Assembly (NCBI GenBank): GCA_029558715.1
Contig: JAKQEA010000042.1
Coordinates: forward strand, 1-64,000
Length of the DNA: 64,000 bases
Source: Bacteroidota bacterium
GTDB lineage: Bacteria; Bacteroidota; Bacteroidia; Chitinophagales; Chitinophagaceae
Reading direction: 5' to 3'
Shown here one piece after another: positions 32,032-36,094 of this stretch. The position numbers were made by a program, and so were the translations under genes. The notes below the pieces were generated by a model. The model searched no databases. It saw nothing but the letters and a program-made list of their open reading frames with translations, and was not told where the DNA came from. Every line of letters starts with the position of its first letter. Positions within the stretch are counted from its first letter, which is position 1.

Positions 32032-33621
32032 ATGGCCAAAACAAAAAAGGAAACCAACACCCAGCCGCTTGAAAAAACACTCTGGCTTGCTGCCGATAAG
32101 CTCCGCAAAAATATGGATGCTGCCGAATACAAACACATTGTACTCGGCCTCATCTTTCTCAAATATATTTCTGATGCATTTGAAGAATTGTATGCAGCAC
32201 TAAGCAGTGATAAACTCGCCGATGCCGAAGATGCCGATGAGTACCGGGCCAAAAATGTTTTCTATGTGCCTCCGCAGGCAAGGTGGAGTTATCTTTTATC
32301 CAAAGCCAAAGACCCGCTGATTGGAAAAATGGTGGATGATGCCATGGATGCCATTGAAGCACTTAACCCTACATTAAAAGGTGTTCTTCCAAAGGTATTT
32401 GCCCGGCCCAATCTCGATAAAAACTCACTCGGTGCATTGATTGACATGATCGGCACCATTGCACTGGGGGATGCGGCAGCAAGAGCCAAAGATTTATTAG
32501 GCAGGGTGTATGAATATTTTCTCGGACAGTTTGCACTGGCCGAAGGAAAAAAAGGCGGACAGTTCTATACACCGCAAAGCATTGTTCGCTTACTGGTAGA
32601 AATGCTGGAGCCATACAAAGGCCGTGTGTTTGATCCCTGCTGTGGCAGCGGCGGCATGTTTGTACAGAGTGAAAAATTTGTGCTGGCACATGCCGGTAAA
32701 ATAGACGACATCAGTATTTACGGACAGGAAAGTAACCAAACCACTTACCGTTTGGCAAGGATGAATCTTTCCATCCGCGGTATTGACAGCAGCAATATTA
32801 AATGGAACAACGAAGGAAGTTTTTTGCGGGATGCACATCCTGATTTAAAAGCTGATTATATTATTGCCAACCCACCGTTTAATGACAGCGACTGGAGCGG
32901 CGAACTGCTCACCACCGATGGCCGCTGGCAATATGGTGTGCCGCCGGCCGGGAATGCCAACTTTGCCTGGGTGCAGCATTTCATTTATCATTTAAGTGCA
33001 ACAGGTATGGCTGGTTTTGTATTGAGTAACGGAAGCCTCAGCAGTAATACCGGTGGCGAAGGTGAAATACGGCAACGCCTAGTAGAAAATGATCTGGTGG
33101 ATTGCATTGTGATGCTGCCCAAACAATTATTTTACAATACAGGCATACCCGCCTGCCTATGGTTTTTGAGCAGGAAGCGTAGCCACTCCTCCCCTGGAGG
33201 AGGAGGCAGGGAGAGGGCCAGTAACAGAAAAGGCGAAGTATTATTTATAGATGCCAGCGAACTCGGTTTTATGATTGACCGCAAGAGCCGTGACCTTAGC
33301 GATGAAGACATTAAAAAAATTACCAGCACATACCACAGCTGGAAAAAACGGAGTGATACTAACTCCTCCCCTGAAGGGGGAGGTTGGGAGGGGGACATAA
33401 AAGGCTTTTGCAAATCGGCCACCCTTGCCGAGATAGCCAAACATAAATATGTATTAACCCCCGGCCGCTATGTAGGCATACCCGATGCGGTGGAAGATGA
33501 AGAAGCCTATGAAGAAAAAATAGCAAAACTTACTGCTGAACTGAAAACACAAATGACGGAAGCAGAAAAATTAGATAAAGAAATAAAAATGCAGTTGAAA
33601 AAAATCGGGATAGAATTATGA
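32032..33621 (+). CDS. hsdM: type I restriction-modification system, methyltransferase subunit
   Basis: '[37 protein letters not shown]', '[13 protein letters not shown]', '[12 protein letters not shown]'. Confidence 0.97.
33186..33219 (+). repeat. G-rich palindromic repeat, copy 3, in frame in hsdM
   Basis: CTCCTCCCCTGGAGGAGGAGGCAGGGAGAGGGCC encoding [11 protein letters not shown]. Confidence 0.75.
33363..33396 (+). repeat. G-rich palindromic repeat, copy 4, in frame in hsdM
   Basis: CTCCTCCCCTGAAGGGGGAGGTTGGGAGGGGGAC encoding [11 protein letters not shown]. Confidence 0.75.
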
Positions 33622-33635
33622 TTTTATCAACCGGT

Positions 33636-34775
33636 ATGGCAAAACAAAAAAATAAATACCAGCAGATAGTAGAAAGCCTGAAAGAAAAGATCAGGCTATC
33701 CCGTATGCAGGCTACAACGCAGGTAAACCACTTGCTAATAAAAACATATTGGGAAATTGGTACTACTATTTTGCAACAGGAAAAAGAAGAAGGCTGGGGC
33801 GCCGGTGTAGTCGCCAATCTTGCTGCAGACCTGAAAGCAGCTTTTCCTGATATGAAAGGATTGTCTCAGCGCAACCTTACTTATATGCGAAACTTTGCCG
33901 CTGCTTATCCCTGTTTTCCAATTTTGCAAGCACCACTTGCAAAATTGACCGTTGCCGGTAAACGCAAACAAGCTGACAATACTGCTTCTTCAATTTTGCA
34001 AGCACCGCTTGCAAAATTGAGCTGGTATCACCACATCACTCTGCTGGATAAAGTAAAAGACGAAAAGGAAAGGGTTTTTTATATATACAAAACCATTGAA
34101 AACGGGTGGAGCCGCAATGTAATGGTGCACCAGGTAGAGAGCCGTTTATACAAACGGCAGGGAAAAGCCATCACCAATTTTAAACACACCTTATTGCCCC
34201 TGCAATCAGACCTGGCCAATGAAATGGTAAAGAGCCCTTACCTCTTCGACTTCCTGGGGCTGGGAGATGAAGTGCAGGAACGGGAACTGGAAAAAGCATT
34301 GATACAGCATATCAAAAAATTTATGCTGGAATTGGGCAAGGGGTTTGCCTATGTAGGCAACCAGTACAACCTGCAGGTAGAAGGCGATGAATATTTCTTA
34401 GACCTGTTGTTTTATAATTACCTGCTGCACCGCTTTGTGGTGTTTGAATTGAAGGTAGGGGAATTTAAACCCGAGTATGCAGGCAAATTGAATTTCTACA
34501 TTAATACTATTGACGGGCAGATAAAAACGGAAAGCCACCAGCCCACCATTGGCATACTGCTTTGCAAAACGCCCAACAAAACAGTGGTAAAGTATGCGCT
34601 GCAGGGAATGGATACACCTATTGGCGTGGCAGAATACCAGCTTACCCGTACACTGCCCCGGCAACTGAAAAGCGGCATACCCTCTATTGCCGAGCTGGAA
34701 GCTGAAATGAATAAAGGATATAAGCAGTTGAAAAAACCGGTAAAAAAAAAGAAATCGGTAAAAAAGAAAAAATAA
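33636..34775 (+). CDS. DUF1016 / YhcG-like PDDEXK nuclease family protein
   Basis: 'YWEIGTTILQQE...GWGAGVVANLAADLKAAFPDMKGLSQRNLTYMRNFAAAY', 'FLDLLFYNYLLHRFVVFELKVGEFKPEYAGKLNFY'. Confidence 0.9.
   Translation: MAKQKNKYQQIVESLKEKIRLSRMQATTQVNHLLIKTYWEIGTTILQQEKEEGWGAGVVANLAADLKAAFPDMKGLSQRNLTYMRNFAAAYPCFPILQAPLAKLTVAGKRKQADNTASSILQAPLAKLSWYHHITLLDKVKDEKERVFYIYKTIENGWSRNVMVHQVESRLYKRQGKAITNFKHTLLPLQSDLANEMVKSPYLFDFLGLGDEVQERELEKALIQHIKKFMLELGKGFAYVGNQYNLQVEGDEYFLDLLFYNYLLHRFVVFELKVGEFKPEYAGKLNFYINTIDGQIKTESHQPTIGILLCKTPNKTVVKYALQGMDTPIGVAEYQLTRTLPRQLKSGIPSIAELEAEMNKGYKQLKKPVKKKKSVKKKK
33919..33947 (+). repeat. perfect 12-bp-stem hairpin, copy A, inside the DUF1016 gene
   Basis: CAATTTTGCAAG-CACCA-CTTGCAAAATTG. 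Confidence 0.9.
33991..34019 (+). repeat. perfect 12-bp-stem hairpin, copy B, inside the DUF1016 gene
   Basis: CAATTTTGCAAG-CACCG-CTTGCAAAATTG, exactly 72 bp downstream of copy A. Confidence 0.9.
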
Positions 34776-34867: not shown

Positions 34868-36094
34868 ATGAGTGAATGGAAAGAAACTGATTTGGGTTTA
34901 TTACCTAATGATTGGGAAATAATAACTCTTGAAAAGCTTGTTAATGAAGAAAGAGGTATTTCTTATGGTGTTGTACAACCGGGTTTCCATAATGAAGAAG
35001 GCGTACCGATTTTACGTGTTAATAATATTAAGGATGGACGAATTATAATTGATGAAGTTCTTAGAGTTGACGAGGAGATTGAAAAAAATTATCAGCGAAC
35101 AAGATTGAGAGGCGGAGAATTATTGATAACGTTAGTTGGTAACTTAGGAGAATGTGCAATTGCAACTAAGGAATTTGAAGGATGGAACGTTGCAAGAGCC
35201 ATAGGTGTAATTGATTTGAATAGAAAAAAAGTAAATCCTGAGTGGATTAAATATTTACTATCAACAACTACAATAAAAAGTATAATTAATAGTTGGGCAA
35301 ATACTACTGTACAGGCAACGCTTAACTTAAAGGAGCTTAATCAACTTCCAATAAGTTTACCCCCTCTCCCCGAACAACAATCCATCGCAGCCATACTCAG
35401 CAGCCTCGACAACAAAATAGACCTGCTGCGCCGCCAAAACCAAACATTGGAACAATTAGCCCAAACTATTTTTAAGCAGTGGTTTGTTGAGAATAAAGAA
35501 AATCTTGAAACAGATGAAGTAGGTAATCTTTTCGACATTACGATTGGCAGAACTCCACCACGAAAGGAAGGTGAGTGGTTTACTGAAAACAGTTCAGACA
35601 TTAAATGGATTTCAATTAGAGATTTGGGAATTAGCGGCATTTATGTTGACACTACGGCAGAATATCTAACTAGTGAGGCAGTTGAACGTTTTAATATTCC
35701 AGTTATTCCAGCTAATACAGTTGTACTTAGTTTTAAATTAACTGTAGGAAGAGTAGCGATTACCACCGAAACTATGTTATCGAATGAAGCTATTGCTCAT
35801 TTCAAAATAAAAGCTGATTCTCCTTTTGTTTCTGAGTTCGTATATCTATTTCTAAAAACCTTCAACTTTGGTTCAATGGGGAGTACTTCATCAATTGCAG
35901 ATGCAGTTAATTCCCAAATGATTAAAGGGATTGAATTTCCAATTCCCGATGAATTATGGATTGAAAAATTTCAACCATCTATAATTACTTACTTTAAGAA
36001 AATAAGAAACAATACAAAAGAAATCCAAACCCTCACCCAATTGCGGGATAGTTTATTGCCCCGGCTCATGAGTGGTAAATTAAGGGTAGGGTGA
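34868..36094 (+). CDS. hsdS: type I restriction-modification system, specificity subunit
   Basis: Two target-recognition halves; 'LPISLPPLPEQQSIAAILSSLDNKIDLLRRQNQTLEQLAQTIFKQWFVE', 'LTQLRDSLLPRLMSGKLRV'. Confidence 0.95.
   Translation: MSEWKETDLGLLPNDWEIITLEKLVNEERGISYGVVQPGFHNEEGVPILRVNNIKDGRIIIDEVLRVDEEIEKNYQRTRLRGGELLITLVGNLGECAIATKEFEGWNVARAIGVIDLNRKKVNPEWIKYLLSTTTIKSIINSWANTTVQATLNLKELNQLPISLPPLPEQQSIAAILSSLDNKIDLLRRQNQTLEQLAQTIFKQWFVENKENLETDEVGNLFDITIGRTPPRKEGEWFTENSSDIKWISIRDLGISGIYVDTTAEYLTSEAVERFNIPVIPANTVVLSFKLTVGRVAITTETMLSNEAIAHFKIKADSPFVSEFVYLFLKTFNFGSMGSTSSIADAVNSQMIKGIEFPIPDELWIEKFQPSIITYFKKIRNNTKEIQTLTQLRDSLLPRLMSGKLRVG

Follow-up and report, generated by a model that had tools for sequence, protein, structure and literature searches.

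The window, a stretch of 64,000 nucleotides from contig JAKQEA010000042.1 of a Bacteroidota bacterium (Chitinophagaceae), carries a gene for a DUF1016/YhcG-type nuclease between hsdM and hsdS, with two palindromes inside the nuclease gene. In the list of features, i is the distance of a half-site base from the palindrome centre, and residue numbers after an equals sign are those of the Mucilaginibacter protein L101.

32032-33621, hsdM, 5' neighbour of the DUF1016 gene (Pfam N6_Mtase/HsdM_N)
33618..34775, + strand, DUF1016/YhcG-type PD-(D/E)XK nuclease gene, 385 aa (Pfam DUF1016_N + YhcG_C)
33870..33884, + strand, putative specificity residues R85 (=77), T88 (=80), and Y89 (=81) in the helix GLSQRNLTYM, covarying with i7, i9, and i5
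33919..33947, no strand, palindrome copy A, centre 33933, extra in-frame copy, ILQAPLAKL as aa 102-110
33948..33990, + strand, spacer of the 72-bp insertion, encoding TVAGKRKQADNTASS
33991..34019, no strand, palindrome copy B, centre 34005, canonical family site, ILQAPLAKL as aa 126-134
34023..34025, + strand, codon of the conserved W (SWYHH), the anchor of the palindrome
34026..34037, + strand, putative specificity residues Y137 (=102) and I140 (=105), covarying with i2/i3 and i4
34113..34118, + strand, putative specificity residues R166 (=130) and N167 (=131); a residue other than R at 131 goes with an unpaired centre, here CACCR
34401..34454, + strand, intact catalytic PD-(D/E)XK motif D262...E277-L-K279, by motif match to the family
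34868-36094, hsdS, 3' neighbour of the DUF1016 gene (Pfam Methylase_S)

Both domains of the window protein scored above their Pfam gathering cut-offs (139.5 bits against 32.8 for DUF1016_N and 208.5 against 32.5 for YhcG_C), and the gene is a full two-domain member of the DUF1016/YhcG family. The catalytic residues E190 and K248 were invariant among 44 homologues. A fold search matched PD-(D/E)XK structures weakly, with a weak resemblance of the nuclease domain to Holliday junction resolvase, and no solved DUF1016 structure was found by sequence search.

Copy A reads CAATTTTGCAAG-CACCA-CTTGCAAAATTG and copy B reads CAATTTTGCAAG-CACCG-CTTGCAAAATTG. Each spans 29 bp, with identical arms and 72 bp from start to start; the 12-bp arms are perfect in both copies, and copy B extends to 14 bp around a 3-nt centre. 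In dinucleotide shuffles of the window, the expected number of chance matches was zero. These results confirm an earlier note on this DNA, which had reported two same-arm palindromes 72 bp apart in the DUF1016 gene at these coordinates, with perfect 12-bp arms and ILQAPLAKL encoded twice. The note had also assigned copy B to the conserved position of the family, and it indeed lies directly before SWYHH with its centre 18 nt before the W codon, which is the canonical place. Its further proposal, that copy A and 'TVAGKRKQADNTASS' form an extra in-frame insertion of 24 aa, requires a surplus of that size in the domain alignment, and one was found: window residues 21-180 align with positions 2-137 of the DUF1016_N profile, leaving approximately 24 surplus residues. 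Apart from copies A and B, the whole 4.0-Mb genome contained no match to the arms with up to three mismatches. A second DUF1016 gene of this genome likewise contains a pair of in-frame palindromes, which differ in sequence from copies A and B. Within hsdM, two G/C-rich quasi-palindromic repeats (TCCTCCCCTGGAGGAGG.. and CTCCTCCCCTGAAGGGGGAGG..; 33186-33220 and 33363-33395) lie in frame, and these seem to be what the note called a G-rich family.

The arms of the window palindrome were scanned against 85,000 species genomes, which gave 58 loci. Most loci with a clear coding context lay in DUF1016 genes and encoded the same motif; these came from Bacteroidota, Acidobacteriota, Armatimonadota, and Kiritimatiellia. 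In four Clostridia loci, a window-type palindrome lay directly upstream of the DUF1016 start codon. Confinement of the arms to the DUF1016 gene, raised as a question in the earlier note, holds in the genome of the window but only in part elsewhere, as approximately 20 of the 58 exact palindromes fell outside DUF1016 coding regions. At the same place, more distant homologues had a very different sequence that was equally palindromic. Of 193 distinct DUF1016 genes, drawn from several phyla, 185 had a palindrome of approximately 25 bp, and every sampled group was represented; the palindrome is in frame, immediately ahead of the codon for the conserved W, and its sequence is gene-specific, with both arms varying jointly. 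The supposition that this one locus hosts a special palindrome was not supported: many different palindromes occupy the same place across the family, each suited to the DNA-reading residues of the protein concerned. From one to four such copies per gene were counted when homologues were compared.

Pairing over 12 bp around the canonical centre, at offset -18 nt from the W codon, was 0.84 in 104 genes, compared with 0.12-0.36 at other offsets; in the set of 195 genes, it was 0.74 at the same centre against a mean of 0.26 elsewhere. Where the canonical place was unpaired, the palindrome was displaced upstream, and nearly all such copies kept the same frame; the reading phases of in-gene copies were distributed 205:8:5. 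Covariation of the arms was evident from 1459 paired cells against at most 879 in shuffles, and positions i5-i8 showed all four Watson-Crick pairs, whereas i3-i4 showed three or four of them. Synonymous shuffles that preserve codons gave 5.3 of 12 pairs against 9.8 of 12 in the real sites, with p<0.05 for 76 of 83 distinct sites. This null rules out a by-product of codon usage, which the note had named as a reason to discard its observation, and the exact palindrome was moreover found in DUF1016 genes of several phyla. The palindromes of the window are one case of an unreported DUF1016-wide rule by which the gene carries its presumed target site. The clearest exception was L284, a GC-rich member of the family in which no palindrome could be recognised. 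In some subfamilies, the gene carries a further in-frame palindrome whose position is also fixed, at +183 nt in L120, L135, and L179, and at -108 nt or nearby in L099, L144, and L114.

Half-site bases were compared with residues outside the encoded peptide by mutual information with background correction. The linked pairs were i7-77, i5-81, i9-80, i4-105, i2-102/131, and i3-130/102, and in the predicted protein model, the linked residues sit in three DUF1016_N helices around the loop encoded by the palindrome. Individual associations were strong (R77 with G, 46.8:0.2; Y81 with A, 36.8:1; R81 with C, 27:4; R105 with C, 20:1; R131 with C, 56.9:0), and they look like protein-DNA contacts. Sister-pair tests and hold-out tests limited by identity guarded against shared ancestry. 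Among 87 independent sister pairs, the base at i7 was the same in 46 of 47 pairs with the same residue 77 and differed in 29 of 39 pairs with different residues (p=2.3e-13, the best of 3432 tests); general divergence makes such p values too small, with unrelated columns reaching about 1e-5. When the training proteins were less than 40% identical, residue 77 predicted i7 at 0.85 (baseline 0.52), and residue 81 predicted i5 at 0.87 (baseline 0.62). With R131, the innermost bases i1/i2 were paired at 0.91/1.00, compared with 0.52/0.64 for other residues at this position. Positions 77, 80, 81, 102, 105, 130, and 131 of the window protein are occupied by R, T, Y, Y, I, R, and N, and its site carries the bases favoured by these residues at i7, i5, i4, and i3. 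The unpaired CACC(A/G) centre is as expected, because N131 would leave the central bases free. What the sequences show directly is a palindrome kept across the family, covariation between its arms, and a code linking residues to bases.

Additional copies were common in and around DUF1016 genes. In-frame duplicates like copy A were among them, with 44 of 195 genes containing more than one palindrome in which 10 or more of 12 pairs formed. Palindrome density within 100 bp upstream of the gene was 0.94/kb against about 0.15, and enrichment was also observed 0-600 bp downstream; five genes (L008, L096, L103, L137, and L185) have copies closely upstream of the start codon, and most DUF1016 genes have no flanking copy. 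Arrays of 6-8 palindromes follow two Mucilaginibacter genes (L101 and L107). The non-coding sites of these arrays retained i7=G and i2=C, the bases expected from R77 and R131; their i5/i6 vary yet mostly remain symmetric, which a simple base readout does not explain. In both loci, the DUF1016 gene overlaps a tyrosine recombinase gene by ATGA, and the 6-8 non-coding palindromes that follow the DUF1016 gene are irregularly spaced and of the same architecture (L101:2496-3055; L107, G006:C3:107551-107872). A different palindrome, TTGAYATCACARATTGTGATRTCAA or its complement, lies approximately 70 bp 3' of the DUF1016 gene in L107 and 44 bp 5' of it in L120.

At the genome scale, every site of the type lay at the DUF1016 locus and none elsewhere in the two Mucilaginibacter genomes with arrays, each of approximately 7 Mb (G001 and G006), and up to 15 palindrome matches were found in one Bacteroidota genome. 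Of 248 Bacteroidota genomes, 99 have DUF1016, and all 17 with the ATTGTG-type palindrome belong to these 99. Palindromes like those of the window also stood alone between genes, for example in L011, L027, L050, and L025. A DUF1016 gene was present elsewhere in 35 of 38 tested genomes with such solo palindromes, which are possibly empty sites.

Natural variation was followed in Escherichia coli, where yhcG was matched in 4434 of 5426 complete genomes. The alleles carry one (O157 Xuzhou21), two (405 and CE10), or three palindromes (K-12, 39 nt apart). Two alleles differ mainly within nt 240-420, one having K77 with i7=C and the other R77 with i7=G, and the rest of the gene is 87-100% identical between them. 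Some extra yhcG sites have i7=G despite K77, and strain 405 does not follow the association of W80 with i9=C. Strains such as Z247 and the ST131 lineage have no yhcG between gltD and nanQ, and 947 genomes matched at least 80% of the joint of this yhcG-less locus. The empty locus contains exactly one cognate palindrome, ATTCGCCAGACAGTGTCTGGCGAAT; in K-12, a near-identical palindrome follows gltD, gltF..yhcG comes next, and a further palindrome lies 27 nt beyond the stop codon of yhcG. These palindromes (L363:3002-3026 in the empty allele; L350:2633-2657 and L350:10971-10995 at both ends of the filled one) were located individually, and the left-end palindrome of the filled allele is the border of the gltF-yhcF block. 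Either insertion at the palindromes or deletion between them yields this pattern, and an outgroup search for its polarity returned only distant gltD matches. Truncated yhcG alleles end or begin in palindrome 3, with some breakpoints corresponding to IS1 insertions. Breaks located exactly in palindrome 3 (L352:5001-5406; L359:1201-1605; L351:5001) affect yhcG of ATCC 8739 and FORC_069 and, through an IS1-adjacent deletion, that of ECCWS199.

The residue-base code, the sister pairs, and the E. coli alleles together argue that DUF1016_N very probably reads the dyad site carried by its own gene. DUF1016/YhcG proteins would then be site-specific nucleases in which the N-terminal DUF1016_N, as a dimer, would read a two-fold symmetric DNA site of approximately 25 bp and the C-terminal PD-(D/E)XK domain would be the cutter; we infer binding of the palindrome by a DUF1016_N dimer from the covariation. 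Nearly every member would hold its cognate site in the coding sequence, in the nine codons of a surface loop before the [ST]W motif. Because little distance separates the site from the codons of its predicted reading residues, specificity and site would travel together on allele recombination. In the window, copy B would be the cognate site and copy A an additional in-frame copy of the kind often gained by members of the family. Against this reading, a nuclease with an intact active site and its target in its own gene should cut itself, which calls for a restraint; no such restraint was found, and the neighbouring genes include no universal methyltransferase.

The nature of the palindromes could be explained in other ways. 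The earlier note had spoken of hairpins, and an mRNA or single-stranded DNA hairpin might be selected for its fold, for translation control or as a structure-specific substrate such as a cruciform. Compensatory changes that keep pairing in the variable arms and at variable array positions agree with this reading, as does the weak likeness of the nuclease domain to Holliday junction resolvase. However, G-U pairs were no commoner than A-C mismatches (48 vs 40 in 195 genes; 32 vs 33 summed over the codon-null set), i1/i2, which are unable to pair in a 1-nt loop, are symmetric depending on residue 131, and base identity follows protein residues. An mRNA hairpin was rejected on the parity of G-U and A-C and the residue-131-dependent symmetry of the centre, and a hairpin of either kind is improbable; the sites fit the DNA-reading residues, which points to a double-stranded dyad recognition site as the functional form. 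A dispersed palindromic repeat, such as a REP- or Rickettsia-RPE-like selfish element inserting by chance in DUF1016 genes, is more improbable still. The in-frame extra copies and the exact palindromes outside DUF1016 coding regions would suit such an element, but the genome of the window has only two sites, both in the gene, the sites of G001 and G006 are all at the DUF1016 locus, the ATTGTG type was confined to DUF1016-bearing genomes among the 248 Bacteroidota genomes, and the sequences differ from gene to gene; a REP-like repeat was rejected on the confinement to gene or locus in these three genomes. A phage target was ruled out, as no viral contig carries a match to the window palindrome and no relative of the window protein was found in viral contigs. 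A constant methyltransferase partner, as in restriction-modification, was rejected after a scan of 88 neighbour proteins, of which a minority were restriction-modification proteins (Methylase_S, 8; N6_Mtase, 6).

Two readings lead for the purpose of the self-site, one of homing-like mobility and one of autoregulation, and both are compatible with recognition of a self-carried site by DUF1016_N. In homing-like or recombinational use, which we regard as a real possibility falling somewhat short of an even chance, the nuclease would cut palindromes of empty loci or of other alleles, after which DUF1016 segments would be copied, swapped, or duplicated at palindromes by repair. This would explain the flanking palindromes, the allele swaps, the in-frame extras, and the single palindrome at empty loci. 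It is favoured by the empty gltD-[palindrome]-nanQ locus compared with [palindrome]-gltF..yhcG-[palindrome] in K-12, by the enrichment upstream and downstream of the genes, by the yhcG truncations at palindrome 3, and by the proliferation of copies in genomes. On the other hand, homing genes normally abolish the target that they use, whereas here the target stays in the gene; recombinational deletion between two palindromes gives the same empty site, with no close outgroup for polarity; most genes lack a flanking copy; and IS1 insertions account for some breakpoints. In autoregulatory use, which we consider the less likely of the two and rather unlikely in itself, the protein would bind the intragenic and upstream sites as operators, lower its own expression, and cut elsewhere. 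The match between protein and site specificity, the similar copies just before five start codons, the location of sites mostly at the DUF1016 locus, and the lack of the window palindrome on viral contigs argue for such a role; however, most genes have no upstream copy, a site approximately 300 bp into the gene is an unusual operator, and the downstream arrays of L101 and L107 are left unexplained. We tentatively suggest, with some doubt, that DUF1016 genes may form a self-targeting, homing-like class of nucleases, in which the DNA-reading helices and the palindrome, within approximately 250 bp, would be swapped as one cassette and the palindromes within the gene, at either end of it, and at empty loci would direct movement, allele replacement, and in-frame gene growth.

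Several known systems resemble these loci. Homing endonucleases with long palindromic targets include the PD-(D/E)XK enzyme I-SspI and the LAGLIDADG enzyme I-CreI. A long two-fold symmetric site, putative in the case of DUF1016, and a patchily distributed nuclease gene are common to both, and the E. coli loci without yhcG, with their one palindrome, may correspond to the empty alleles of homing systems. In contrast, the DUF1016 gene does not interrupt its own site, which persists intact in the coding sequence of the nuclease in 185 of 193 distinct genes, and the specificity co-evolves. In REP/RAYT (REPtron) and IS200/IS605 systems, a nuclease-type gene has palindromes in its flanks, as DUF1016 genes also do. 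Unlike these, DUF1016 has PD-(D/E)XK rather than Y1 tyrosine chemistry (Pfam finds only DUF1016_N and YhcG_C in the window protein, and no Y1 HUH transposase domain), its sites are in the coding sequence, and there is no high-copy dispersal with many intergenic copies. Rickettsia palindromic elements (Ogata et al. 2000, 2002, as described in PMC4316617) are likewise in-frame palindromes within coding sequences; however, they are approximately 100-150 nt long and lie in unrelated genes, whereas the DUF1016 palindromes are approximately 25 bp and lie at DUF1016 loci. Exact-pattern matches in clear coding homologues were DUF1016 genes, and the others were outside genes or in unassigned frames, with no insertion into many unrelated genes.

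The YhcG family has been described as predicted PD-(D/E)XK nucleases of unknown role, with the motif E-D-E(I/L/V)K and an N-terminal domain without assigned function (PMC1189080), and deletion of yhcG is synthetic lethal with hypomorphic parE, dnaN, and dnaB (PMC2672614). Both reports fit a role involving DNA. PADLOC lists DUF1016/YhcG (Pfam PF17761 + PF06250) only as a candidate defence system, PDC-S02. In open-licence papers, no report of an in-gene palindrome or recognition code in this family was found, and in these two points the finding goes beyond what those papers describe. For a widespread nuclease family, this yields a candidate domain for site recognition, a code from residue to base, and, in most members, a target that can be predicted from the gene itself, and the function becomes directly testable, including that of YhcG of E. 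coli K-12. The family also illustrates how the requirement to keep a DNA site can mould a coding sequence, and it would offer a readable specificity if the nuclease cuts where it is bound.
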